From: Brevibacillus humidisoli
GTDB taxonomy: Bacteria; Bacillota; Bacilli; Brevibacillales; Brevibacillaceae
Direction: 5' to 3'
Length of the DNA stretch: 64,000 bases
Assembly (NCBI RefSeq): GCF_020923435.1
Contig: NZ_CP087263.1
Location: forward strand, 3,863,970 to 3,927,969
The notes under the pieces were generated by a model, which made no database searches, was not told the origin of the DNA, and saw only the letters and a list, made by a program, of their open reading frames with translations. Position numbers and translations under genes: made by a program. How positions within the stretch are numbered: the first letter of the stretch is position 1; each line of letters opens with the position of its first letter. Below, one piece after another: positions 18,801 to 32,327 of the stretch.

Positions 18801-19646
18801 TTACTCTGGTCGGTTTAAACGATCAATATTAAACTTAGCATTCTTAGCATCACCAATTTTTAACCAATTCCATCCTTCTTCATTTAAAGTTTCATGTGTG
18901 GAAACGACTGTCCAATCCAAGCTGGAGTCAAAAATGTATAAATCAGAAGGAAAATCCGTTAATTTATTCATTAATTCTTGAAACGGCATTTTAAAAATAT
19001 ACGTTCTACCCATTGTATATGTAAACGGTGACGTACCATCCCAAAAAAAGAAAACCTCCTGGTTAAGATCCATGCCATACTTTACGTCTTCAAAACAAAC
19101 AACCGCAAAACCTGATTTTAATACATCCCAAAGGTACCCATACCCTTGGAGATAGTCTTGATAATAGCTCTTTTTCTTTTGCTCTTCCAAATTACAAAAA
19201 GTACGAATATATTTTTTTCTTAAGCGTAACGATTCTTCCCGGGAGAGGCTTGGTAGCAGATTTATACGTAATTCGTAATCTTTTATAGGAACATAGAGGT
19301 CAACCCGCTTTTTTATACCCTCTTGAAAATGGTGCACTTCAAACCAATATCCAATGGTCGCATAGGAGTCGGTCTGTTCTATTTCACTGATCTGCTCTTT
19401 TGGAAAAACCGCATACTCTCCAGTTGGAATTGTTATTTCTTTTAAACCTTGCTCTACTCCATCCACATGGGATACTTGTTTTCCGATCATGTAGTAATAT
19501 TCGTCATGGATTTTATAAACTGTATCATTATCTACAGTGTTGTTTATACTTAACTGCTGATAACAATATTGGTCAACCTCAGTTTTCTTGTCGCACAAAA
19601 CCCCCACTATTTTTATCGAGTCCATCCGTTTTATTTGCAAAGTCAT
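18801..19646 (-). CDS. GyrI-like effector-binding domain protein with unknown C-terminal domain
   Basis: 281 residues; ATG 19646 follows a GGGGTG site. Residues 1-130 have the GyrI/BmrR effector-binding pattern (IKRMDSIKIVGVLCDKK, the VSHVDGVEQGLKEITIPTGEY strand pair, QTDSYATIGYWFEVHHFQE), with YEL ending the strand. The rest (about 150 residues, RLRKKYIRTFCNLEEQKKKS, VCFEDVKYGMDLNQEVFFFW) resembles no family I can name; it has one WDGTSPFTYTMGRTYIF block that may form a second ligand pocket. No DNA-binding domain is present, so it probably binds a small molecule without regulating transcription itself. Composition is AT-richer than the tail genes, fitting transfer. Confidence 0.6.
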   Translation of the reverse strand: MTLQIKRMDSIKIVGVLCDKKTEVDQYCYQQLSINNTVDNDTVYKIHDEYYYMIGKQVSHVDGVEQGLKEITIPTGEYAVFPKEQISEIEQTDSYATIGYWFEVHHFQEGIKKRVDLYVPIKDYELRINLLPSLSREESLRLRKKYIRTFCNLEEQKKKSYYQDYLQGYGYLWDVLKSGFAVVCFEDVKYGMDLNQEVFFFWDGTSPFTYTMGRTYIFKMPFQELMNKLTDFPSDLYIFDSSLDWTVVSTHETLNEEGWNWLKIGDAKNAKFNIDRLNRPE

Positions 19647-19684
19647 AATAGCACCCCTGATACACATTAGATATATTGGAGCAC

Positions 19685-20086: not shown

Positions 20087-21130
20087 TCAGTCTGTTGTGG
20101 GCATAACATCAGCCTTTCTAAGATGCTCAAGGGCTTTTTTTATGTGGCTCTCTGTAAAAGTCCGCTTTTTGCGGGGACTCCATTGATGAACTTCGTAAAC
20201 GACCTTGTCTGGAGAGTCAGCAATCCCCGGCTTTTCTTTCACCACCCAGTGAACCGTCGCCAATAATTCCATGCCGTATGGGGTTTCAAATCCTCTAATG
20301 ATTTCCTTTACGTGATCCAGTCTTCGCAGGGACTCTCCTTCATTCGCCAGAAAGTCCTTAGCCTCTTCCGCCGCATGGGGAAGTACGTATATTTCCGCAT
20401 CCTTGCTTCTGTCACCATACCCTCGAATATAATGCCCTTCTAATGCTTGGAGGACGTGATTCAAATTTTCCGCATAGGGGCCGTAGTAGAACCGCACAAA
20501 TTTTAGTCTTAATTCTTCCCCCACTTCTTGCAAAAAATAAGCCAGTTTCTGAATCTCCAGCAGGGACAGGCGATACCCTGGCAAAGCGTACTCCTTCATA
20601 AGTGAGAGAAACAGAGCGCGAGCTTTAGTCATTCTTGGTTTTTTTGTGCCGATCTTCATGGCGTCAGGTGCAGGACTCCCGGAGGGTACATACAGCTCAA
20701 CATATACATCTGAAAGTGGCGCAAACGCATTTTCGATTCTCGGACGCACTACATTCCAATCAAGTCCGCCATTGCCGCATCCCAAAGGAGGAATCGCGAT
20801 TGATTTAATGTTGAGGGTCTTCACTTCTTGAACCAGTGCTGTTAACCCTGCATCGATATCCTCTAGCCTGGATGCCTCTTTCCAGTGCCTTTTTGTCGGA
20901 AAATTGATGATGTACTTGGGATTCCACAAAAAACCGGTCATGACGGTAAGCATCTTGCCGGGTTGCACGCCACCAACCCTGCACGCCTTCACATATTCGG
21001 TGAAATTATCGGGGAAGGCCTGCTTAAATTGTAAAGCAATCCCCTTACCCATAACCCCGACACAGTTGACCGTATTGACCAGCGCTTCCACATCTGCTTC
21101 AAGAAGGTTTCCTCTTTTGTATTCAATCAC
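20087..21130 (-). CDS. darG: DarG-type macrodomain DNA ADP-ribosyl glycohydrolase (antitoxin), no DarT adjacent
   Basis: About 347 residues, the usual DarG length. The GTG at 21130 is preferred over ATG 21139 because AAAGGATG then has normal spacing and the product begins IEYKRGNLLEAD. The macrodomain (1-155) shows GNLLEADVEALVNTVNCVG, GVMGKGIALQFKQAFP, and AIPPLGCGNGGLDW, the loops that hold ADP-ribose. The C-terminal domain has RLSLLEIQKLAYFLQEVGE, FYYGPYAENLNHVLQALEG and GMELLATVHWVV, as in full-length DarG. DarG removes the ADP-ribose that DarT places on thymidine in single-stranded DNA. Here darT is missing; the two genes upstream encode an XRE-ImmA protein and an unknown protein. Confidence 0.85.
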   Translation of the reverse strand: MIEYKRGNLLEADVEALVNTVNCVGVMGKGIALQFKQAFPDNFTEYVKACRVGGVQPGKMLTVMTGFLWNPKYIINFPTKRHWKEASRLEDIDAGLTALVQEVKTLNIKSIAIPPLGCGNGGLDWNVVRPRIENAFAPLSDVYVELYVPSGSPAPDAMKIGTKKPRMTKARALFLSLMKEYALPGYRLSLLEIQKLAYFLQEVGEELRLKFVRFYYGPYAENLNHVLQALEGHYIRGYGDRSKDAEIYVLPHAAEEAKDFLANEGESLRRLDHVKEIIRGFETPYGMELLATVHWVVKEKPGIADSPDKVVYEVHQWSPRKKRTFTESHIKKALEHLRKADVMPTTD

Positions 21131-21152
21131 CTGGATCATCCTTTAGTAAAAA

Positions 21153-22307
21153 TTATCTGGGTCTCAAATGAATGATCTTAGCAGATGGTCCTGTTTCTCG
21201 TTCGGTTAAGTAACCATCAGGGAAATTGGCTACTTCTTCAATCTCCTTGGCAGACAATCCAATTTCCGACACGAGATCTGACTTACCTTTCACATTGTGC
21301 TCAAGCAATAATTCTATGGCTTGTTTCAATGCAATAGGTTCTTCTAAGGGCGTTTCAGCATCTAATGGTTCCCTTTTCGTCATTCCTAGTGCATTCATCT
21401 TTTTTCGTAGATAGAGGGCTTGATAGTCACTAATGATCCCCAATTCTTCCGCACGATAAATCATAGCACCTATTGAGACATTCCATCGTTTTTTCAGTGA
21501 TATAAAATGATCCAGCGAACTCGAGAATATTTCCTGGGGGAAAGAGTTATAAGGAAGCAGGAATGCTGAAGCAAACCGATGAGCTTCCTTTTCCATCCGT
21601 TTGTAGTTTTCTTTTTTCTTGAACTCCTCTAATGTTATCGAGGAGTGAAGAATCAGATGCCCTAACTCATGGGCCAAATTAAATCTTGAGCGAACAGCGG
21701 ATTGTTCATCGTTTCCCAGTAAGATATATGGTCGTTCTCCCTCATTCCATAGAGAACACGCATCAATTTTGTAGTTCATCAAGCGTGCTCGAGCAATGAT
21801 GACCCCTTTTTTCTCCAACAACCGAATAAGGTTGGTGATAGGACCGTTTCCTAATCCCCAACGCCTTCTGACCTCTAACGCAATATCATCAATATCATTG
21901 AAATTGGTTTCCACAAAATGAGACGTAGTGTTAACCTTAGGTATATCTAATGCTGGGAAGTCTAATATACTCTCCAGATAACAATGCACATCTCTAAGCC
22001 AGTTTATTTTTGTTTGATGTATCTTTTTAGATTTTACTGAAGCTGCCGCTATTGATCTGAAGTAAACAATCCCATCCCTTTTTTCTTCGATGGGCCTTAG
22101 AAAGAATGAAAGGGGAAGATTTAATACGTATGTTATTCTATCTAAAACATTATGTGCGGGCACTGCTTTTCCCTTTTCATATTTCGATACAGCTTGGTGC
22201 GTGACTCCAATTTTCTCAGCCAATTCCACTAAGGTTAATCCCCTGGCCTCGCGACCTTCTTTCAACCTTTCTGGAACGAAGCTAGAAAATTGCTTCCTGT
22301 TCTTCAC
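21153..22307 (-). CDS. XRE-family regulator fused to ImmA/IrrE metallopeptidase
   Basis: 384 residues, GTG start overlapping the upstream stop (GTGA). Residues 10-70 form an XRE helix-turn-helix (LKEGREARGLTLVELAEKIG, VTHQAVSKYEKGKAVPAH). After a linker, the peptidase has RFNLAHELGHLILHS with the HExxH zinc site and a third ligand region EKEAHRFASAFLLP. The last 90 residues are helical. Proteins of this plan act as protease-type derepressors or as antitoxin partners (RmrA of RosmerTA is, as I recall, of this type). It is 22 bases upstream of the macrodomain gene and probably represses its own promoter. Confidence 0.85.
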   Translation of the reverse strand: MKNRKQFSSFVPERLKEGREARGLTLVELAEKIGVTHQAVSKYEKGKAVPAHNVLDRITYVLNLPLSFFLRPIEEKRDGIVYFRSIAAASVKSKKIHQTKINWLRDVHCYLESILDFPALDIPKVNTTSHFVETNFNDIDDIALEVRRRWGLGNGPITNLIRLLEKKGVIIARARLMNYKIDACSLWNEGERPYILLGNDEQSAVRSRFNLAHELGHLILHSSITLEEFKKKENYKRMEKEAHRFASAFLLPYNSFPQEIFSSSLDHFISLKKRWNVSIGAMIYRAEELGIISDYQALYLRKKMNALGMTKREPLDAETPLEEPIALKQAIELLLEHNVKGKSDLVSEIGLSAKEIEEVANFPDGYLTERETGPSAKIIHLRPR

Positions 22308-22960
22308 TCATTTTGCACTCCTTGAACAAAACGCTTAAAACTGACTAAGCGTTCCTCCATGTTGGCATCATCTTCGATCTGAATATCATTATTTTGCACC
22401 AAATGCTTTTCTTTTAGCAAGTTGATACGGTCAATCCATTCCTTCTTACCCGGGATACCAAGCATGATAAAATCCGGTTCCACATTTCCATACCCATGGG
22501 TAAGGAGTAAATATCTTTTCTCTTGTAGAATGTTATATTGATTCACTTCGCCGAAATAGTCGATAAACAACTGATTCAGATTCAGTTCCTGATACTTCTT
22601 GCGAAAAAAAGCTGGTCTTGCTATACGATTAGGGCTACGAGTTTGACTGATGGTAATAATCGCTCGATTCGTCAGTAATTCAAGGTGTCGCGCAGTCTTA
22701 TTCTTGTTGTAACTTAAACGATATTGAAGATTAAGTTTTCCTTCATCGATGGCTTTCTTAAACATGAATTGAATAGCTATAGGTTTAAGATAACCAACAT
22801 GAGCATGGCCAATTTCCCAGTTCAAGAAGTCAGAATTATGTACTGCCTGATAAGCAAGCGAATAGCTACTACGGATGATTGGAACAATACTCGCTCGAAC
22901 TTTAAGCGGAATTTGTTGGTTGATAAAATCCTCCGCAATTTCAGGAACTACTACCTTCAC
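22304..22960 (-). CDS. Unknown protein, first gene of XRE-ImmA/macrodomain operon
   Basis: 218 residues from GTG 22960, placed seven bases after AAGAGGTG; an apparent longer frame up to 23023 overlaps the promoter and is not used. Mixed alpha/beta, soluble, no known catalytic motif that I can see. Notable segments are VPEIAEDFINQQIPLKVRAS, NWEIGHAHVGYLKPIAIQFM, QTRSPNRIARPAFFRKKY and THGYGNVEPDFIMLGIPGKK. It lacks the DarT hallmarks. Position before an XRE-ImmA gene with a 4-base overlap suggests the toxin or effector half of a RosmerTA-like pair, which is inference. Confidence 0.7.
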   Translation of the reverse strand: MKVVVPEIAEDFINQQIPLKVRASIVPIIRSSYSLAYQAVHNSDFLNWEIGHAHVGYLKPIAIQFMFKKAIDEGKLNLQYRLSYNKNKTARHLELLTNRAIITISQTRSPNRIARPAFFRKKYQELNLNQLFIDYFGEVNQYNILQEKRYLLLTHGYGNVEPDFIMLGIPGKKEWIDRINLLKEKHLVQNNDIQIEDDANMEERLVSFKRFVQGVQNE

Positions 22961-22985
22961 CGGCAAACACCTCTTGACAAATGTT

Positions 22986-23025
22986 GTTGCAACCATATTA
23001 CCTAAATCATTGGAATTTTGCAACC
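22986..23025 (-). promoter_or_regulatory. Operon promoter with two operator repeats
   Basis: Minus strand: TTGCAA (23018-23023), 17-base spacer, TAATAT (22995-23000). The plus-strand 8-mer TTGCAACC occurs at 22987-22994 and 23018-23025, 31 bases apart (about three helix turns). One copy covers the -35 box and the other the transcription start. This fits dimer binding by the XRE protein and autorepression. Confidence 0.75.
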
Positions 23026-23205
23026 GAAATTACAAGGGCAAAGTCCTTGTAATCGAGCTCACAGAGTAGCCGCTAGTTGCTACCTGTAGAGTTATCTCTT
23101 GGTCTTTTCGTATCCAGCTATACTTTTCGATGTCTGACAAATCAATCTAGTTCGCTACAAACACGTCATCTTTCTTGCTAATTGACTAAACCCAAACAGC
23201 AACGC

Positions 23206-24394: not shown

Positions 24395-25540
24395 CTACCT
24401 CGGAATCCCCGCCGCGTTCCGCAACGCACTAGCCGCATAATGTGCAGCATCCTGTACTTTCTTATCTGCGCTGGCGATCCAGAGCGCTCCCAAGACACCG
24501 ATCACCTTCTCGGCTGCCTCTCTATCCACAGCATTATCCACAGGCGGTGTGGATACTTTCGTGGCCAACAGGCCCGCCAGATAGTCCTTCACAATCGACT
24601 GCCCGTAATCAGCTGCGGGTGCCCACTTTCCGCCCAACTCCTCCACCGTCGGGGCCGTCCCTTCGATGGACGAGAAGTGCCGGGGGTCTACGATCTTGCC
24701 TGTGACTTCCACGCCAGCGTACAGTGCCAGATGTTGCAGGTGCGCCAGTACCCCGGTTTCATCGTCTGGAAACTTTGCGTGTGCGTAGGGATCGCTGTTG
24801 GCTCCGCCTTGGGTCGTTTTCAGCCCACACCAGTTGTGGTGATCGCGTGTGACCACGCCGCCGAAACGCCCAAACGCCGTTTCCTTGGCCGCTTGCGCAT
24901 ACGCTACTTCTGCCCGGATGCCCATCTCCGCCCCAAGTCGCCAGTAGATTGGAGCCACGTCAATGAACGCTTGAGATGCCCCGCGGTTCCGCGCCCACTC
25001 TTGGGCTTGTTGTACGGTAGCTTGCGCCTGCCCTGCAATAGGCGTACCTTTCATGTGCCGCTGGACGCTGGCCATGAACTCTTCCCATCCATCGGGACGC
25101 GACCGGATCACATGCGGGCAGTTCTTCCCTGTCCAGTGGCTGTGTTGGACTACGGCATTCGGTCCAAGTCCAAACTGCCGCAAAAGAGAAGCGACCAATT
25201 CCGCAGCATTTGCTTCTGCTTTGGAACGGTCGCCGTCGCTGTTTTCGCATACCTCGATGCCGATTGATGTGCTGTTGCCTGGGCCATTGCCGTCTCCAGC
25301 GTGCCAGCCGATCTCATCAAGTGGCAGGTGCTGCACAATGCGGGTGTCGTCTACCGTGAAGTGCCAGGAGACAGGCCGACTCGCAGCGCTGTCTCCTTTC
25401 AGGTACCGGGCGTGCGCTAGTGCGTCAGCCCCGGCATTTGGGTTGGCCGTGTCGTGGACAGTGATGTACTTCGGTCCTGTCAGTTTTGTTCCTGGACGGT
25501 TTGGGCGGCCGGCCGGAATGAAATCCTGAATGATGTTCAC
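24395..25540 (-). CDS. Unit 2 endolysin: Amidase_2 plus glucosaminidase-like domain
   Basis: 381 residues. Residues 1-165 are a PGRP/Amidase_2 domain of the CwlA/XlyA type: KYITVHDTANPNAGADA with the first zinc histidine, VSWHFTVDD, GWHAGDGNGPGNSTSIGIE, and HSHWTGKNCPHVIRS with the remaining ligands. Residues from about 185 to 330 are the same glucosaminidase-like domain as in the unit 1 lysin (YAQAAKETAFGRFGG, HNWCGLKT, HFSSIEGTAPTVEELGG). The C-terminus is intact (AAHYAASALRNAAGIPR), showing what unit 1 lost by its 10-bp duplication. The start overlaps the holin stop. Confidence 0.9.
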   Translation of the reverse strand: MNIIQDFIPAGRPNRPGTKLTGPKYITVHDTANPNAGADALAHARYLKGDSAASRPVSWHFTVDDTRIVQHLPLDEIGWHAGDGNGPGNSTSIGIEVCENSDGDRSKAEANAAELVASLLRQFGLGPNAVVQHSHWTGKNCPHVIRSRPDGWEEFMASVQRHMKGTPIAGQAQATVQQAQEWARNRGASQAFIDVAPIYWRLGAEMGIRAEVAYAQAAKETAFGRFGGVVTRDHHNWCGLKTTQGGANSDPYAHAKFPDDETGVLAHLQHLALYAGVEVTGKIVDPRHFSSIEGTAPTVEELGGKWAPAADYGQSIVKDYLAGLLATKVSTPPVDNAVDREAAEKVIGVLGALWIASADKKVQDAAHYAASALRNAAGIPR

Positions 25541-25734
25541 TGTCCATCCTTCTCCCCTTTGAAGTTGTTGAGAAACGCTGCCAAAACGGCGGCAGCCGCA
25601 GCTACACCGTTGGCAATCGCGTTGATCTGATCATCGGAAATGACACTGTAGCCAAACGCCTCCAATACCAGTTTCGCGGCACCCAGCAAGCCAGTCACCA
25701 ATACCACCATGTTTCCTTGCTTTTTGCTCTTCAT
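25537..25734 (-). CDS. Holin-like small membrane protein (unit 2)
   Basis: 65 residues starting at the second ATG (25734), which gives exact correspondence with unit 1 (MKSKKQGNMVVLVTGLLGAA). Two hydrophobic segments are separated by a polar DDQINAIANG turn. About 90 percent identical to its unit 1 partner. Confidence 0.75.
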   Translation of the reverse strand: MKSKKQGNMVVLVTGLLGAAKLVLEAFGYSVISDDQINAIANGVAAAAAVLAAFLNNFKGEKDGQ

Positions 25735-25735
25735 G

Positions 25736-25930
25736 CTACTTCCCCACCTTTTCTTTGATTTCACGTAGTTCCGTGATCACCACGTCATACTTGTCACTGA
25801 ACTTGTTGAGCAACTCTTGCAGGCGCATCTCTCGTTCTTTGCTGGTCTTCATCACGTAAAATAGCAGCCAAACAAAAAGGGCCGCGAACGGCCCCTGCTG
25901 CAGCAACGTATTCCATAGTGTCTGTTCCAT
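25736..25930 (-). CDS. bhlA: BhlA-type holin/bacteriocin-like protein (unit 2)
   Basis: 64 residues, identical to unit 1 up to VITELRE, but without the extra VNSELRE repeat. It has the N-terminal membrane helix FAALFVWLLFYVM followed by a basic amphipathic tail. Confidence 0.82.
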   Translation of the reverse strand: MEQTLWNTLLQQGPFAALFVWLLFYVMKTSKEREMRLQELLNKFSDKYDVVITELREIKEKVGK

Positions 25931-25954
25931 GTGCTCACCCTCCTTCCAGGCAAC

Positions 25955-25980
25955 AAAAATAGCCCCGATCGGTTCGGGGC
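25955..25980 (-). terminator. Intrinsic terminator-like hairpin before bhlA (unit 2)
   Basis: GCCCCGAACCGATCGGGGC followed by TATTTTTG on the minus strand. It is at the same place as the hairpin in unit 1 but has a different sequence. Confidence 0.75.
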
Positions 25981-26001
25981 GAGCTGTAATATTGTGATGT
26001 T

Positions 26002-26136
26002 TTATGGTAAAGGTTGTCCATCGGTACCCAAGCCAAGCACCTCCAGTTCTGCTTGTACAGCAGGCTGCAGGATAGATGGAACCTGATCGAAGGTTCGACG
26101 ACCGTAAATGATCAAGGCGACGTACAAGGCGACCAT
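26002..26136 (-). CDS. CD1375-like small phage protein A
   Basis: 44 residues from ATG 26136, behind GGAGAGGGGG: MVALYVALIIYGRRTFDQVP, then QPAVQAELEVLGLGTDGQPLP. It matches the short CD1375-like proteins found between fibre and holin genes in Firmicute phages; function unknown. A longer upstream frame has no ribosome binding site and is not used. Confidence 0.75.
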   Translation of the reverse strand: MVALYVALIIYGRRTFDQVPSILQPAVQAELEVLGLGTDGQPLP

Positions 26137-26176
26137 ATCGACACCCCCTCTCCAAAAAAGTATCCATAGCACGAAG

Positions 26177-26296
26177 CTAAGAAGCATGGTTCTCAGCATC
26201 CATGAGGGCTTGAACATCTGCACGGAGATTTTCCGGGACTTGTTCTATGGTTCTGCGTCCTTCCTTGATCAAGGTATAGTAGATTTGCACTATCAT
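26177..26296 (-). CDS. CD1375-like small phage protein B
   Basis: 39 residues: MIVQIYYTLIKEGRRTIEQV, then PENLRADVQALMDAENHAS. It shares the pattern of protein A just downstream (aliphatic start, GRRT, Q-V-P, then a helical end), so the two are paralogues in tandem. ATGGAGGAACTAC supplies the binding site and the start overlaps the upstream stop (ATGA). Confidence 0.7.
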   Translation of the reverse strand: MIVQIYYTLIKEGRRTIEQVPENLRADVQALMDAENHAS

Positions 26297-26496
26297 GTAG
26301 TTCCTCCATTCAAAGCTAGTAACTGCTCATACACTTCTGCTACCGCCTCCATCGTCATGAGGCTGTCGGCCCGAAGCGTTTGATTTTCGGCCCTCAGCGC
26401 TGTGTTTTCGGCTTCCAGTTGGGCAATTCTCACTTCGGGACTCTGCCTTTCCTCTTCGCGGATCTCCGAGATCGGTTTCACGTTCTGGAATCGCAT
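26293..26496 (-). CDS. Small coiled-coil phage protein
   Basis: 67 residues from ATG 26496 overlapping the fibre gene stop (TGATG). A coiled coil RIAQLEAENTALRAENQTLR occupies the centre. Similar short coiled-coil proteins follow fibre genes in many Gram-positive phages; likely a fibre-associated oligomerising protein. Confidence 0.7.
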   Translation of the reverse strand: MRFQNVKPISEIREEERQSPEVRIAQLEAENTALRAENQTLRADSLMTMEAVAEVYEQLLALNGGTT

Positions 26497-28058
26497 CAGT
26501 CGAATGCACCTCCGTATCCGTTCAGCAACACTCTTTCCGTTGCTGTCCCCTTCGCTATGCTCACCCAAATGTTGATTCGCCAGCTCTCAGCGGTTTTCGT
26601 CTCGTTTGTAAAGAGATGCCCTCGTCCTGCGATTACAGCTGCCGTTGCATCCTCCCAGGTAGGCTCCGCATCCATCGCGTTGTTTGTTACCCGCACAAAC
26701 TCGATTTCTGAGCCCGGTGGGAGATACCGTTCCAACTTCACGAGCACCCGTTTCGGCATCCCGTCCAGCGTGAAGTGCACCTCCACATCAGGGTTGTCGA
26801 AATCGAGCATGAATTCGATGTGGGTCTCGGTTCTCACGAAAGTGAACGTCCGGGTAGATGTGAGGCCGTTGTCGTCAGTAGCCTCCACGGTCAGCTCGTG
26901 TGGCGTGTCCAAGTCAAGCCTGATCCAGCGATCATGCGGAATGGTTACCGTCTCTTCCTGGCCAGTAACGCCTGGGAAAGAGCGAATGACCGTTCCGTTG
27001 ATTTTCTCGGTGATCATGAACGGGTTTCCTTCTGGATCCGTAACTGTGTATGTCCGGACAGGCGGCGCCATGATGGTTCCCAGATCCTCGTTGGCCCCGC
27101 TGATGGTCGGTGGACGGTTCCAGATGACGGTAAAGTTCCTGACCTCTTCGGTTGAAACACCGCCCTGGTCATCCTCAACCCATACATGCAACGTGTGGGC
27201 CGTGTTCTCGGCCAGATCTACACCGGTTACGTCCGTGGCGCCATCCCACAGCCGTTTGTTTTGGTACGTCAGCGCCTTTGCAAAAGAAAGAGGCGTGCTT
27301 CCATCGCTTACACCGGAGGCAATCGCCCTTTCTGTGCCGTTGTTGATTTTATACTTGACCGTCACCACGTTGCCATTGTCTGCGTCGGTCGCGCTTCCCT
27401 CGATGTCGTATGCAGTACCTTCCGATAATGTTTGATTATCGGTAGGTAAACTAACATTTAACAAGGGAATTTGGTTTGAGTAGGTTATTTCTAGATATGG
27501 CCGCTTATTTACGTCAGTGTTCTCTTTGGTACCAGTCTCTATGCCTGCCCATGAATTACCTGTCTCCCCAAATTCGCTATGAATGTAAAAGTTTAAAATG
27601 TTCTGACCTTCTCCAATAGCAGCCAAAAGAGAATTAAGGATATCAAGTTTTACTAGACTACCTACGGATTCATCTCCTGTTATTATGGTACCGACGTTGC
27701 CATCGTCAATTCTATTAAAATTATAATTGGCTAGATCGGATGAATTGTATGTCAAGGTATTTTCATTCCATTCATTTTTCCATCTATAGACCTTGGCTGA
27801 GATAGCGCTGTAACTCAAATAGGCAAATGCTCTCGTGACTGGTATTACTAACTTCGCATCAGTAATTCCAGAAAGGTTATTGACCCCTGAGATATCGAAT
27901 TTAAAGAATGGATAGGAGTATTGTGCCCTATTCAACCTTCCTATTTCATTAATCGTCGGCGATGTTGCACCAAATGCAGTGTCGGCGGTATTACCAGAAT
28001 TTCCGGCATTTACAAATGTATCGGCTAATATATTAGTCACTTTCTTGGTATACGACAT
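26496..28058 (-). CDS. Tail fibre with DNRLRE-type domain (unit 2)
   Basis: 520 residues. The N-terminal 190 residues resemble a DNRLRE domain (ILADTFVNAGNSGNTADTAF, YSYPFFKFDISG, VYRWKNEWNENTLTY), a beta-sandwich found in surface proteins. Two Ig/fibronectin-like domains follow (NKRLWDGATDVTGVDLAENT, TVTDPEGNPFMITEKING). The final 90 residues (MDAEPTWEDATAAVIAGRGH, ETKTAESWRINIWVS) are homologous to the unit 1 fibre end, so the two fibres share only the C-terminal tip. It occupies the same operon position as the unit 1 fibre. Confidence 0.8.
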   Translation of the reverse strand: MSYTKKVTNILADTFVNAGNSGNTADTAFGATSPTINEIGRLNRAQYSYPFFKFDISGVNNLSGITDAKLVIPVTRAFAYLSYSAISAKVYRWKNEWNENTLTYNSSDLANYNFNRIDDGNVGTIITGDESVGSLVKLDILNSLLAAIGEGQNILNFYIHSEFGETGNSWAGIETGTKENTDVNKRPYLEITYSNQIPLLNVSLPTDNQTLSEGTAYDIEGSATDADNGNVVTVKYKINNGTERAIASGVSDGSTPLSFAKALTYQNKRLWDGATDVTGVDLAENTAHTLHVWVEDDQGGVSTEEVRNFTVIWNRPPTISGANEDLGTIMAPPVRTYTVTDPEGNPFMITEKINGTVIRSFPGVTGQEETVTIPHDRWIRLDLDTPHELTVEATDDNGLTSTRTFTFVRTETHIEFMLDFDNPDVEVHFTLDGMPKRVLVKLERYLPPGSEIEFVRVTNNAMDAEPTWEDATAAVIAGRGHLFTNETKTAESWRINIWVSIAKGTATERVLLNGYGGAFD

Positions 28059-28113
28059 ATTCCTCCCCCTCCCTTCTCAAAATGGCCGTTATCCGAAGGT
28101 ATCCGCATATTAC

Positions 28114-28386
28114 CTATACCTCCAACCGCGTCTCAGCTGCATTGTAGTAGCCGCGAATCACTATGATGGAGTCGACCGTGCTCAGGTCGTCGTCAAACTT
28201 GTTGTGGATGAAGTTCTCGGGCAAAATGCCTTCCAGCGTGTAGACGCGGGTTTTCAGGTTGTTCACATCCGTGGAGAGTTGGGCGAGTTGTGCATGTGCA
28301 TCTGCGATACCCTGCTCCCAGCGGTTGATGTCTTGCTCTGTGACAGGATCACTGTATTTCCAGTCGATCTTTGCTTGATAAGGCAC
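28114..28386 (-). CDS. Phage tail connector protein (unit 2)
   Basis: 90 residues: YQAKIDWKYSDPVTEQDINR near the start, a coiled-coil middle (LAQLSTDVNNLKTRVYTLEG) and a beta end. The phrase ending in QDINRWE is common in short Firmicute phage proteins next to fibres. It directly follows the preceding gene with no gap. Confidence 0.7.
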   Translation of the reverse strand: MPYQAKIDWKYSDPVTEQDINRWEQGIADAHAQLAQLSTDVNNLKTRVYTLEGILPENFIHNKFDDDLSTVDSIIVIRGYYNAAETRLEV

Positions 28387-28704
28387 CTATACCCCTCCTT
28401 TCACCTGCACAACGAATGTCAAGGTCAAAAACTGCGAGCCGTTCATTCCGATCTGAGTCACCTTTTCTGCCACGACAACGCCATCCGAGGTCAACAGTTT
28501 CAGATTGTTGATTAGCGGTACGGAATCTACATGCAGCGCCTGTACCTGCAGGGCAATCGCGTTTTGAAACCCAACAATGGGGTGGGTTGAAATCACCGCA
28601 CCTTGCACTGGAACAGAAACGGAATCGTTTATAAGGATGCTGCCGCCGTTCAATCGTGAGAGGAGGTCATTTCTGGCAAGAGTCAGGTAATCTTTGTGCA
28701 TCAT
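28387..28704 (-). CDS. Phage tail protein of unknown function (unit 2)
   Basis: 105 residues, beta-rich (SVSVPVQGAVISTHPIVGFQ, LTLTFVVQVKGGV). Start overlaps the YmfQ-like stop. It holds the place of the unit 1 gene at 11242 but sequence similarity is weak. Confidence 0.6.
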   Translation of the reverse strand: MMHKDYLTLARNDLLSRLNGGSILINDSVSVPVQGAVISTHPIVGFQNAIALQVQALHVDSVPLINNLKLLTSDGVVVAEKVTQIGMNGSQFLTLTFVVQVKGGV

Positions 28705-29273
28705 ACCAGCACCTCCTCATATCGTTTAATTGGTGTCATGCCGACGCGAAACTCGGCTACGATGTGGTACTCCTTGATGCCGACCACTACGTTGTCCACG
28801 AACTGCAAATGATCGCCGCTCACTGGCTCAAAGGAAACGCCGTTACAATGCACGGGGCGAATCTTCTCTACTGACTGAACGGCGTGCTTCGTATCGAACG
28901 GATCCTCGATCGGGTAAACGTAGTGAATGACCTTTCCGAGAAAGTCCTCCACCATCTGGACGTTTTTCAACGTAGAGGCGCTGAGGCCAATCGCGCGAAG
29001 GACGCTGGGCGTAAACCCCAACCGTGCCCAATGTTTCCGCTGGATGTTCTTCCGCCGCTCCTCTGTCCCAAGAGGCTGCTTCTGTCCGAAGTAAATCCAG
29101 TCCCACACATCCAGTGCATAGGTGGCCAAGAGGGGAAAAAACTGCAGTCCCAACTCTCCCCGACGAGCGGCATAGTCATCGACGGGTACGGCTACCCCTT
29201 CAAAGTAGTACTCAGCCACCCTGTTCTCATACCAGTAGGGTGGCAACATTTCTCGGTATCGCTCAGGAATCAT
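28701..29273 (-). CDS. YmfQ/XkdU-like phage tail protein (unit 2)
   Basis: 190 residues with the family block MLPPYWYENRVAEYYFEGVA, the helix LLATYALDVWDWIYFGQK and the RRKNIQRKHWARLGFTPSVL region. It overlaps the baseplate J stop. It has diverged further from the unit 1 copy than the lysis genes have. Confidence 0.8.
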   Translation of the reverse strand: MIPERYREMLPPYWYENRVAEYYFEGVAVPVDDYAARRGELGLQFFPLLATYALDVWDWIYFGQKQPLGTEERRKNIQRKHWARLGFTPSVLRAIGLSASTLKNVQMVEDFLGKVIHYVYPIEDPFDTKHAVQSVEKIRPVHCNGVSFEPVSGDHLQFVDNVVVGIKEYHIVAEFRVGMTPIKRYEEVLV

Positions 29274-30085
29274 GTCGTCACCACCAGTTCTAGCGTTGCA
29301 ACGGCATCAGCGGGGATCGTCAGATTGGCAGTCCCGCCATTCAACGTGTAGTTGGTGAAGTCTTTGACACCGTCTACCAAAAAGAGCGATCCAATCACCT
29401 GGTACACGATCTCGGAACGCCCTTTCAAGTAGGTTTTGATTTGATTGGTTATCTCCGAAGTAACTTTCTCCATCACAGCGTCTGGCTCAAGGATCAGCGC
29501 CACTGATACAGAAACCGGATAGACATTGGCCGGAAGCACCTGCAAGTCATGCAGGGCCTTTCGTTTTTCTTCCAATTGATCCCGCACCTGCTGCGCTAAC
29601 TCCGCAGATGCTGGCTGCCCGGTACTATCCGTGATGTACACGTCGATCGATAGATCGTGTCGTGCCTTCTCGATGGCAACTGCGCCTCCCACCCCGTCAA
29701 TTGCCCGCGCCCACTGCTCGTAATCAATCCTGCGCCCATCCCCCTCTTCCGTCCGTGCGCGGTCGATCAATCGCTGCCGGTACGGATCATCTGCCTCGTC
29801 GATGTTTCGCTCCAATCCCATAAACACACCGTGAGCATCCAAAAACTCCCCATCCGCCCAAGGCAGGAATCCCTGCACAAAAGCATATTCCAACAGCTGC
29901 TGCTGCTCGCTGATCTCGTCGGCAATCGGGTAGAGCAGATCGTAGAAAAACTCCCCTTCCTCTGTAGCTGGCAGAGTCTCCCCTCGCTCCTGCGCCAAAG
30001 CCTCCAGCCGGTTCACCATTCGCTGATAAATCTGATCCGCCGTCTCCCGCAAAATCGGCATCTCCGGCTTCTCTATCGCTGCCAT
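29270..30085 (-). CDS. Baseplate J-like protein (XkdT-type)
   Basis: 271 residues. The N-terminus has ILRETADQIYQRMVNRLEAL; then comes the GEFFYDLLYPIADEISEQQQ block, the HGVFMGLERNIDEADDPYRQ loop and the standard DGRRIDYEQWARAIDGVGGA core. The C-terminal domain ends in SLFLVDGVKDFTNYTLNG. In contractile tails this protein forms the wedge of the baseplate. At 271 residues it is shorter than PBSX XkdT (about 348), so it may lack part of the outer domain. Start lies within the end of the XkdS-like gene. Confidence 0.88.
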   Translation of the reverse strand: MAAIEKPEMPILRETADQIYQRMVNRLEALAQERGETLPATEEGEFFYDLLYPIADEISEQQQLLEYAFVQGFLPWADGEFLDAHGVFMGLERNIDEADDPYRQRLIDRARTEEGDGRRIDYEQWARAIDGVGGAVAIEKARHDLSIDVYITDSTGQPASAELAQQVRDQLEEKRKALHDLQVLPANVYPVSVSVALILEPDAVMEKVTSEITNQIKTYLKGRSEIVYQVIGSLFLVDGVKDFTNYTLNGGTANLTIPADAVATLELVVTT

Positions 30086-30507
30086 GCGTCCACCTCCGTT
30101 CTGGTTGTGCCTCTTACACCTTCGATTTCAAGCGAGAATATGATGCCGTTTCCTTCAAACCGGATGTCCATTACCTCGGCCCGCTCGATCTCGCTGTGGG
30201 CCTCCAGCGCTTCCTGGGCCTGTGTTTTAATGGTTGCCAGGGATATACCCGACCGCATGCGGCCCACTTCGTATAAGAAGTCCACCCCGTACCGCTCCGA
30301 GTAGATGGCGTAGCGAAACCGTCTAGTGTTGAGAATCTTTTTAGCCGCCTCCTCCAGGTACTCGGCATAGCTGGTCGTACGAAGGTACCGCCCATCTGGC
30401 CCCTGTCGAAACTGTTTCGTTTCCCAGTCAAACTTGTACGTCCAGGGGATCGGCGTCTGTTCATCCTGCTGCTTGAGCAGTTGGTTGTCTTGCAGTTGTG
30501 GAAACAT
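30073..30507 (-). CDS. XkdS-like (DUF2634) baseplate protein
   Basis: 144 residues: TPIPWTYKFDWETKQFRQGP, the FRYAIYSERYGVDFLYEVG motif that marks DUF2634/gp25-like proteins, and a beta end. It is a baseplate hub or wedge component and sits between the XkdR-like and J-like genes as in PBSX. Confidence 0.88.
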   Translation of the reverse strand: MFPQLQDNQLLKQQDEQTPIPWTYKFDWETKQFRQGPDGRYLRTTSYAEYLEEAAKKILNTRRFRYAIYSERYGVDFLYEVGRMRSGISLATIKTQAQEALEAHSEIERAEVMDIRFEGNGIIFSLEIEGVRGTTRTEVDAWQR

Positions 30508-30508
30508 T

Positions 30509-30757
30509 TCACTTCACCTTCCCCAACACCAGATATTGACCATTCGCACAGCGGACAAGCACGACTTTCCTGCCAATGTCCTCTGACAGAATCACCTCAT
30601 CCTCCAGCAAAACGCATTCCTCCTCTTCCAACGGTTCCGGGTCCCGATCCAGCTTAATCGTGAGAGGGGCGTGCAACTGAATGGTCCCGAATTCCGGCTG
30701 TGTATCCGTAATACCTGACCTGGCCCCTTGAAACAGTTTCGCAATCGCGGTCTGCAT
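30509..30757 (-). CDS. XkdR-like (DUF2577) baseplate protein
   Basis: 82 residues starting at ATG 30757, because GGAGGTGAG lies 12 bases upstream and the preceding gene ends at 30768. Contents QTAIAKLFQGARSG, GTIQLHAPLTIKLDRDPEPL, KVVLVRCANGQYLVLGKV match DUF2577, a beta-barrel hub protein. Confidence 0.82.
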   Translation of the reverse strand: MQTAIAKLFQGARSGITDTQPEFGTIQLHAPLTIKLDRDPEPLEEEECVLLEDEVILSEDIGRKVVLVRCANGQYLVLGKVK

Positions 30758-30767
30758 CTCTCTGTGC

Positions 30768-31718
30768 TCACCTCCTCTCCATCTCCAGATCCATCGTGAA
30801 CTGGCCGCCCTTCCACATGCCGCGGCAGGACGTGACGATCCAATCCGAGATGGTTTGTCCATCCTTCTCCTGAATCTTGATGGCCCACCCGGCCCGCAGC
30901 ATCGCCGCCTTGGGATCGCTGTGCTTGACGGTAATCGACCGGGTGACGGGCACCTTGGACAGTTCCTTCAATTGCCTGTCGGCTAAGCTGGACAGGTTGG
31001 TGTCTTCTCCGGCATCGACCATCTTTTCCATCCGGCCAATGTCCTGGATGAGCGATCCGTTTTCCTTGGTTACGCGGCCTGCCACCTTATCGTCTTTATA
31101 TCGCTCGACGGTGACCACCGTGTACACGTCCTCGATGCTGTTGCCGGTCGAGCTGCTTTCCAACAGATCGGCACGGAAGAGGGGAATGCTCTGATTCCCT
31201 CCTTCCGGCACGACGGTCAGCTTGTCTCGCTGATGCTGGAGGAAGTAACGCTTTCCTGTCTTTTCATAGGCTTGTTCCATGATGGTCGTATACAGCGACC
31301 CATACGATTGCGAGACCATGCGCTCCTTGATCGAAAAGCCGAGGGACGGGCAGGAGAAGGCGATCCCTGTACCCTTGATCACTCGCTCCAGCTCCTTGCC
31401 CGCATCCCCGTTCAGGCGAACCGGCCCAGTGTCATTCTTCTGCAGGTACCAGGACAGTTCGTAGGCTGTGGCGGATAAGTCAACCGTCTTGTCATCCCGC
31501 CGGGGGTTGACGATGGGGCCATGAAAGAATTGCTCACTCTCCATCAGCTCCTCACCGGAGAAGAGCATCAAAAAACCCGCTGCTTGTAACAGCGGGGAGT
31601 TGCGGATGCGGATGTCGCAGGTCTGGGCGATCTGACCGCGCGACGATGACCAAGAGAGATCCACGATGGAATCGGTCAGCTCGATTCGTTCCGCTCCTTT
31701 GCCGTATACCACTCTCAT
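30768..31718 (-). CDS. XkdQ-like tail hub protein
   Basis: 316 residues. It begins RVVYGKGAERIELTDSIVD and has the gp27-like hub fold: SWSSSRGQIAQTCDIRIRN, the strand FFHGPIVNPRRDDKTVDL, AYELSWYLQKNDTG, and a C-terminal barrel ending TVKHSDPKAAMLRAGWAIKI. In contractile tails this hub caps the tube and carries the puncturing device. Confidence 0.88.
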   Translation of the reverse strand: MRVVYGKGAERIELTDSIVDLSWSSSRGQIAQTCDIRIRNSPLLQAAGFLMLFSGEELMESEQFFHGPIVNPRRDDKTVDLSATAYELSWYLQKNDTGPVRLNGDAGKELERVIKGTGIAFSCPSLGFSIKERMVSQSYGSLYTTIMEQAYEKTGKRYFLQHQRDKLTVVPEGGNQSIPLFRADLLESSSTGNSIEDVYTVVTVERYKDDKVAGRVTKENGSLIQDIGRMEKMVDAGEDTNLSSLADRQLKELSKVPVTRSITVKHSDPKAAMLRAGWAIKIQEKDGQTISDWIVTSCRGMWKGGQFTMDLEMERR

Positions 31719-31730
31719 CCAATCGCCCCC

Positions 31731-32327
31731 TTATGTCCCGATCGCACGGTTGAGACTGGCCAGTTTTCGATCGATCCGCTCCCGCTGCGTCAGTTGAAGG
31801 GTGGACGCCACCAGGGATTGACTGGACGTGCTTTTTTTCTTGGCCGTTTTGCCTGTCGTGTTCGGCCTCGCCTTGGTCTGCTTGGCCACGACCGCAGCTG
31901 GTTGCAACAACTGCTTCTGGTTGGTGTAGGTGACAAACTCGTCCTTCTCAAAGAGAGGCAGTTCAATGTTGCCGTAGAAATCGCCGTTGATCCCCTTGTA
32001 CGCTCCTTCACACGGACCGATGAGTACCGTCCACGCCAAGTCCAGTTCGTCAATGGTAATCAGCACTTCCTTGGGTGTCAGTCGATCCAGACCCTCCAGC
32101 CAGGCTTTCGGTCCCTGGTAGCCCGGTACTTCGTTGAGGGGAGACTGAGGGTCACCCGGCAAGACGAAATCAAACGAGATGGACTTCGGTCGACGTCCCG
32201 CCATCCGTGACTTGGTGGACAGCGTAATCGTCGTTGTGGATTCCGTATCGTTTCCGTATCCCCGCAGCTGCACTTCGCCGGGAGTGACCGGGAAGGTAAG
32301 CCGGTACATGCCTTGCAGTCGAATCAT
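31731..32327 (-). CDS. XkdP-like tail protein without a clear LysM motif
   Basis: 198 residues from ATG 32327 (AGGAGG 11 bases upstream). The N-terminal half is of the XkdP type (LTFPVTPGEVQLRGYGNDTE, ISFDFVLPGDPQSPLNEVPG, ITIDELDLAWTVLIG). XkdP normally ends in a LysM peptidoglycan-binding domain; here the last 60 residues are basic and Ser/Thr-rich (KARPNTTGKTAKKKSTSSQS) with no recognisable LysM pattern. Wall binding may therefore be lost or replaced. Confidence 0.78.
   Translation of the reverse strand: MIRLQGMYRLTFPVTPGEVQLRGYGNDTESTTTITLSTKSRMAGRRPKSISFDFVLPGDPQSPLNEVPGYQGPKAWLEGLDRLTPKEVLITIDELDLAWTVLIGPCEGAYKGINGDFYGNIELPLFEKDEFVTYTNQKQLLQPAAVVAKQTKARPNTTGKTAKKKSTSSQSLVASTLQLTQRERIDRKLASLNRAIGT

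Follow-up and report, generated by a model that had tools for sequence, protein, structure and literature searches.

A putative paired operator with 31-base spacing on the promoter of a RosmerTA operon of Brevibacillus humidisoli

Two exact copies of an 8-mer flank the promoter of a small operon of Brevibacillus humidisoli. We wanted to know whether these copies are an operator and, if so, which protein would read it, or whether they are a chance repeat around a promoter. An earlier note on this DNA had proposed that they form a paired operator, read by the product of the second gene. We analyzed in silico the surrounding stretch of 64,000 nucleotides (the window; contig NZ_CP087263.1), together with homologous operons of other bacteria.

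The operon and its promoter

The operon is located on the minus strand of the window. It is an anti-phage toxin-antitoxin operon of the RosmerTA system, which the earlier note had not named, and in it the toxin gene rmrT is followed by rmrA, encoding an XRE-ImmA antitoxin, and then by an orphan darG gene. The rmrT gene (22304..22960) encodes a RosmerTA toxin of 218 aa (PADLOC RmrT PDLC03933, E 9.9e-60). We chose the GTG at 22960 as its start codon; the listed open reading frame (ORF) is 239 aa long and begins at an upstream TTG inside the first of the two repeat copies described below. A Shine-Dalgarno-like sequence, AAGAGGTG (22968..22975, minus strand), is present 7 bases before this GTG. 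The rmrA gene (21153..22307; PADLOC RmrA PDLC03947, E 2.7e-155) overlaps rmrT by 4 bases and encodes the antitoxin and presumed repressor of 384 aa. In RmrA, an XRE helix-turn-helix (HTH) domain (Pfam HTH_3) is fused to an ImmA/IrrE-type peptidase domain (Peptidase_M78) with the sequence HELGH. Two features of RosmerTA, an RmrA with an XRE HTH and an ImmA-type peptidase domain and an adjoining RmrT gene, are present.

The predicted structure of RmrA has a mean pLDDT of 86.6. For residues 8-73 the structural match is the P22 c2 repressor (Z 11.8, rmsd 2.5, 66 aligned), tied with ImmR and SinR; for residues 134-314 it is CapP (Z 10.4, rmsd 3.6, 166 aligned; E 9.8e-6 in Foldseek), tied with IrrE. 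The RmrA domains also compare with DdrO and CapH. RmrT matched no Pfam or NCBIfam family at E values up to 0.1, and no PDB entry matched its model (pLDDT 74) below E 0.12.

The third gene (20087..21139, minus strand) encodes a DarG-like antitoxin of 350 aa (NCBIfam NF048014, 469 bits for a cut-off of 250; PADLOC DarG, 7.8e-138). A search of the genome for DarT (PF14487, E 0.001) gave no match, the control having matched in one of 14 known genomes; with DarG and no DarT match in the genome, the locus does not qualify as DarTG. The idea that RmrT may be a DarT-like enzyme guarded by DarG gained no support from these Pfam, NCBIfam and PDB comparisons of RmrT. DarG was also unmatched (phmmer, E 0.001) in 41 stretches around double sites of the kind described below; some of these stretches stop within the operon or shortly beyond it. 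A 288-aa ORF with weak Cass2/GyrI-like and DUF4275 matches follows darG (18801-19667). On the other side, minus-strand ORFs at 24395-31718 resemble, by eye, a prophage lysis and tail module, and the operon may therefore be cargo at a prophage edge.

Upstream of rmrT, the 8-mer TTGCAACC is present exactly at positions 22987-22994 and 23018-23025 of the plus strand, 31 bases from start to start, as the earlier note had it; the interval given there (22986-23025) starts one base too far to the left. Read along the minus strand, that of the operon, the elements are GGTTGCAA, the 17-base spacer AATTCCAATGATTTAGG, TAATAT and again GGTTGCAA. Putative operator copy 1 (23018..23025, minus strand; GGTTGCAA, core GTTGCAA) covers the -35 hexamer TTGCAA (23018..23023), which lies inside it. 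Putative operator copy 2 (22987..22994, minus strand; also GGTTGCAA) directly follows the -10 hexamer TAATAT (22995..23000; spacer 17) and lies over the expected transcription start. The layout previously proposed, with one copy on the -35 box and the other on the start site, is thus the one found on the minus strand, the start site being the expected one. The description of the promoter as near-consensus was overstated. TTGCAA and TAATAT each match the consensus at four of six positions by manual count, and the rmrT promoter has no entry in the promoter scan, whose threshold was 9/12. Because its hexamers match at only 8/12 positions, the promoter is ordinary to weak.

Two further elements are present near the pair. 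A perfect inverted repeat with 9-base arms, ATTACAAGG-7-CCTTGTAAT (23029..23053), lies just upstream of operator copy 1, and a TTGTCAA-like leader word is found 3' of the second copy, at varying spacing, in the window (22974-22981) and at loci L010, L012, L042 and L064. A 434-like reading with two half-sites (GCAA-N6-TTGT with the downstream TTGTCAA) was dropped, because not all promoters have the second half, which also varies in spacing.

The pair before homologous operons

Short repeats are frequent in this DNA. A third copy of TTGCAACC is present at 31900-31907 of the minus strand, and three copies in 64 kb are at chance level (mean expected 2.68). Counting exact 8-mers with two or more G/C that are repeated 9-40 bases apart, we found 127 in the window, two of them at offset 31, and for a 52-base stretch of such composition the probability of some exact 8-mer repeat is about 0.013. 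The bare 8-mer pair, taken alone, is therefore mildly unusual and weak evidence. In the genome (4.9 Mb), the longer pattern GTTGCAA-N24-GTTGCAA is found at a single place, and a reversed-pattern control at none. What raises the pair above chance is that it is single in the genome and conserved before homologous operons.

These operons, before which the earlier note had suggested looking for the motif, were collected by protein and not by motif. RmrT matched at E 0.001 in eight of 398 genomes drawn from the class (own genome included), and an RmrT-family match was found in six of 398 genomes drawn from the phylum (own included), which gave 12 non-self RmrT operons, seven from the class draw and five from the phylum draw. 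The exact pair GTTGCAA-N24-GTTGCAA is present before rmrT in four of the 12 (L010, L012, L013 and L022). A fifth operon, L014, contains TTGCAA twice at 31 bases but differs at the G in front of each, giving two mismatches, and the pair is absent from the remaining 7/12. The outcome that the earlier note had named as a refutation, a motif missing from homologous operons, was not obtained. RmrT identity in the five operons with an exact or two-mismatch pair is 33-41%. For 11 of the 12 upstream regions (that of genome G686 was left out), we computed from a first-order model that the exact pair should occur 2e-7 to 9e-6 times in each, or about 1e-6 times per operon. The rmrT relative of G686 (L086 and L087) was found split in two, an internal stop lying in one of the parts, and the adjoining rmrA is open. 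The rmrT promoter of L014 contains three TTGCAA copies, 30 and 31 bases apart, the third lying 30 bases further upstream.

Among the seven operons without the pair, L011 has GTTGTTA and GTTGTAT at the two site positions, and the -35 boxes of the other six are TTGACA, TTGATA or TTGATT. We compared the block around the -35 box with the word 31 bases downstream. The similarity is 0.91 for L088 (ACTTGACAAA/ACTTTACAAA), 0.73 for L090 and 0.64 for L089; there is little sign of a pair in L087 and L091 (0.55 each) and in L015 (0.36).

A scan with the pattern GTTGCAAN17TANNATNGTTGCAA returned 33 stretches in a collection of 84,980 genomes and eight in viral contigs. RmrT and RmrA are encoded directly after the site in nine of the 33 genome stretches and three of the eight viral ones; the pair stands without rmrTA in the other 24 and five, respectively. 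The nine genome matches are from Paenibacillus (three), Enterococcus (two), Kroppenstedtia, Sporolactobacillus, Halolactibacillus and a Paenibacillaceae MAG, so that the pair before rmrT is found across several families of Bacilli. With the spacer altered to 16 or 18 bases, which was scanned in viral contigs only, 15 and eight stretches were obtained, with RmrT or RmrA in 0/15 and 0/8. Because altered spacers also give matches in such numbers, the argument lies in the linkage to rmrTA and not in the number of matches. When viral contigs were scanned with the RmrT and RmrA proteins, no relative was found.

The looser pattern GTTGCAA-N24-GTTGCAA is present in 15 of 149 relatives' genomes (own included), at 17 places versus three for the reversed-pattern control. 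It is found in three of the five genomes with an RmrT match (that of the window included) versus 12 of the 144 without. In nine further genomes with RmrT, it occurs once in each of the two that have an exact promoter pair and in none of the other seven.

At seven loci (L053, L039, L045, L135, L138, L144 and L131), a double operator looks intact and yet is not followed by a match to rmrTA. At L053, from Paenibacillus popilliae, what appear to be the first rmrT codons are kept, and the same assembly contains an open operon (L064). Genome G115 contains a full operon (L132) as well as an orphan site (L144), and at L131 an unrelated ORF of 101 aa with no Pfam match lies at the usual distance behind the site. 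No remains of rmrT or rmrA were detected at L039, L045 and L053 by tblastn at E 0.001.

For the conservation analysis, operons repeated between sets, as judged by promoter and helix, were entered once (L061, L062, L065 and L066 as L042, L012, L013 and L022, respectively), leaving 14 distinct promoters. Both 7-mers average 1.79 bits per column, the -10 box 1.46 and the remaining spacer 0.53; the downstream and upstream flanks have 0.37 and 0.16. Eight of these promoters had been picked by a motif of which TA..AT is part. For the six that had not, window included, the corresponding values are 1.55 for the 7-mers, 1.24 for the -10 box, 0.45 for the spacer, 0.31 downstream and 0.02 upstream. Constraint is equally strong on the second copy, which is no promoter box, and this argues for selection on binding.

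In the window operon, direct and inverted arrangements of the two sites are indistinguishable because TTGCAA is its own reverse complement. In 13 RmrT-family promoters, the 11 bases around the -35 box show a direct similarity of 0.706 to the block 31 bases downstream, while the highest value for any other offset from 22 to 45 is 0.385; the 'others' group of this comparison excluded loci from L100 on. The seven promoters without the pair gave 0.636 at offset 31 versus at most 0.377 elsewhere. The best inverted values were 0.469 (offset 32) for all 13 and 0.532 (offset 22) for the seven. Searching the whole upstream regions of the 13 promoters gave a z of 5.2 for direct offset 31 and 2.4 for the best inverted arrangement. 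The spacing of 31 bases is firm for the RmrT family. Shuffling the partners among loci gave a P of 0.0002 for concordance within promoters over all 13. In the seven promoters without the pair, concerted turnover of both copies did not reach significance in the same procedure (P 0.079), and it is mainly the contrast between operator classes that suggests that the two copies change in concert.

For RmrA proteins that go with other toxin families, the evidence for such spacing is weak. A 31-base plan for all XRE-ImmA antitoxins is not claimed, as the groups with a KQ or EQ helix peak weakly, at offset 30 (z 2.7) and offset 31 (z 2.1). In this offset search, five of 16 A-only loci had been left out beforehand and near-identical upstream regions were removed (EQ from 15 to 11, A-only from 11 to 10). 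Several XRE-ImmA genes that no toxin gene precedes (L098, L104, L106, L108, L109, L113, L126 and L128) show an inverted pair, GGTTTACA ... TGTAAACC, or variants of it around the promoter; over 16 loci, the inverted similarity at offset 29 is 0.489.

The recognition helix of RmrA and the proposed mechanism

At E 1e-20, 80 places encoding XRE-ImmA proteins were found (44 and 36 further), of which we examined 72, window included; the eight left out are G277 and seven of the 36 further ones, and L114, which is counted in the 72, lacks residues in the helix columns. Residues 37-44 form the recognition helix of the RmrA model, with His37 of an HQ dipeptide at its start. HQ at the start of this helix is found at nine of the 72 loci. 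Six of the nine contain the TTGCAA pair (the window, L010, L012, L013, L014 and L022), versus none of the 63 non-HQ loci, two of which have H but not HQ. The three HQ loci without the pair (L110, L112 and L113) have no RmrT-family toxin in front. RmrT-family operons with the pair encode [ST]HQ in all 18 listed proteins (duplicates included), and the seven without it encode SQQ, SRQ/TRQ or SSQ/TSQ.

We built a tree of RmrA without the HTH, omitting L041, which is too short, and the four duplicates. In this tree, L011 (SQQ, with GTTGTTA and GTTGTAT) is placed among the TTGCAA operons as sister to L064 (SHQ, with GTTGCAA twice), with support 100/97. Because the two are sisters, helix and both sites differ together over a short path. 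On the whole tree, the operator-and-helix label needs two changes, versus 8.7 in shuffles; these are few events, and they speak of co-variation and not of binding. In the residue code of the 434 repressor, Gln28 goes with A. His37 may correspond to position 28 of that repressor, judging by the alignment ranges alone (query 5-61 with chain 3-58).

That the operator is read by the XRE-ImmA protein, which the earlier note had called probable, is the most likely reading, given that the pair recurs and that the recognition helix co-varies with it. We consider it quite probable that RmrA, alone or with RmrT, binds both GTTGCAA sites and represses its own operon. The two sites would then be the autoregulatory operator of the rmrT-rmrA(-darG) operon, one RmrA unit (alone or complexed with RmrT) sitting over the -35 box and another over the start site. 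Being 31 bases, or about three helical turns, apart, the sites would lie on the same face of the DNA, and cooperativity between the two bound units is plausible. Repression is the natural reading, because a protein over the -35 box and the start site would exclude RNA polymerase; the toxin operon would thus be kept low. With RmrA as the putative binder and repressor, the candidates for release would be loss of free RmrA or its possible self-cleavage.

The pair could also have arisen as a promoter feature, with TTGCAA serving as the -35 box and the second copy being accidental. The first copy is indeed the -35 hexamer, and close 8-mer repeats are common in the window. We nevertheless regard this as very improbable and rejected chance and promoter-only readings on conservation, since the second copy is conserved like the first without being a promoter element, and four exact pairs in 12 homologues stand against the roughly one in a million expected for each. 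A regulator of the host or of a prophage, other than RmrA, might read the sites, and in favor of this other bacteria have pairs in front of genes that are not rmrT. This too is improbable, although less so, as the genome contains a single copy of the pair, several families of Bacilli carry it before rmrT, and the RmrA helix co-varies with it. A better candidate, which we still hold to be somewhat less probable than its negation, is the RmrT-RmrA complex as the binder, with the toxin-to-antitoxin ratio tuning repression (conditional cooperativity). Among the 72 XRE-ImmA loci, the TTGCAA pair occurs only where the RmrT profile also matches; three such toxins scanned in PADLOC match the PDLC03933/03940/03938 group; and an Xre-RES complex is described as repressing its own promoter (PMC12204516). 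Against a need for the toxin, the operator also follows the recognition helix of RmrA, and the RmrA of L022, 40% identical to that of the window, retains both the pair and HQ.

How repression by RmrA would be lifted is a separate matter. The earlier note had ImmA activity cutting the repressor upon a signal, so that the sites would be vacated and toxin and antitoxin made. HELGH is present in RmrA, HELGH or HELAH is found in 10 listed relatives (two of which duplicate one another), CapP and IrrE are fold matches of the peptidase domain, and HTH cleavage was suggested in 2023 for Rosmer-like systems (PMC10440598). On the other hand, ImmA cuts a separate protein, ImmR, as described there (PMC10440598), while the HTH and HELGH of RmrA are in one polypeptide, and no separate small repressor or XRE gene was seen in the operon's ORF list, so that RmrA itself is the sole candidate substrate. 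For the related antitoxin RipB, moreover, the passages available report that it counters the toxin and treat autoregulation only as possible (PMC12795458). As written, release by an ImmA that cuts a repressor is unsupported, and the full scheme is unlikely. We are equally doubtful about a bolder version, in which RmrA is a one-protein switch that combines repressor, antitoxin and protease and clamps the promoter with two HTH domains, 31 bases apart on one face of the DNA. Upon a phage or DNA-damage signal, RmrA would cut off its own HTH, which would simultaneously open the promoter and unleash the toxin, and in evolution the operator code would have been switched (HQ reading GTTGC and QQ reading GTTGT) with the spacing kept.

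Comparison with known systems

Autoregulation by an antitoxin through an operator on its own promoter is textbook knowledge. The window operon has two features of an autoregulated type II toxin-antitoxin operon: an antitoxin with a DNA-binding domain, and an operator-like element on its own promoter that recurs with the operon. Like RmrA, the systems ImmR/ImmA of ICEBs1, DdrO/IrrE and CapH/CapP join an XRE domain and an M78-type peptidase. In DdrO/IrrE and CapH/CapP, the repressor and the peptidase are separate proteins. ImmA and its repressor are also separate (PMC10440598), whereas RmrA is fused and has a toxin gene in front; with one polypeptide and no separate XRE gene seen in its ORF list, the window operon does not qualify as a switch of the ImmR/ImmA type.

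The closest relatives are the RosmerTA systems, including RipAB of Streptococcus pneumoniae, in which a fused XRE-ImmA antitoxin is likewise encoded behind the toxin gene (PMC12795458). For pneumococcal RipB, that study supports an antitoxin role and goes no further than not excluding an effect on the transcription of ripA (PMC12795458). The toxin of the window belongs to RmrT group PDLC03933, in contrast to the PDLC03931 toxins of L033 and L035. These two loci provide the only antitoxins among six scanned that pass the cut-off of 335 bits of the RipB (spr1629) model NF052239; the window RmrA scores 253 bits and falls outside the model. Upstream of the toxin gene, L033 and L035 contain ACTTTAAA words 31 bases apart. 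The portions of the literature that we searched hold no description of a RosmerTA operator.

A 31-base paired operator with a matching helix position is directly testable. The change of His to Gln together with that of GCAA to ACAA is a candidate specificity switch that a few point changes could test, and the paired operator offers a handle for finding further RosmerTA operons.

Xre-RES of Pseudomonas putida shares the XRE antitoxin, autoregulation of its own promoter and the proposed simultaneous use of two sites, but its predicted sites are about 20 bp apart, the binder is the toxin-antitoxin complex, and the excerpt available mentions no peptidase domain (PMC12204516). PraR of Rhizobium leguminosarum is an XRE repressor with the same MEME consensus, TTGCAA; unlike RmrA, it regulates attachment and biofilm genes and, as far as the consulted text goes, is not part of a toxin-antitoxin operon (PMC4149787).
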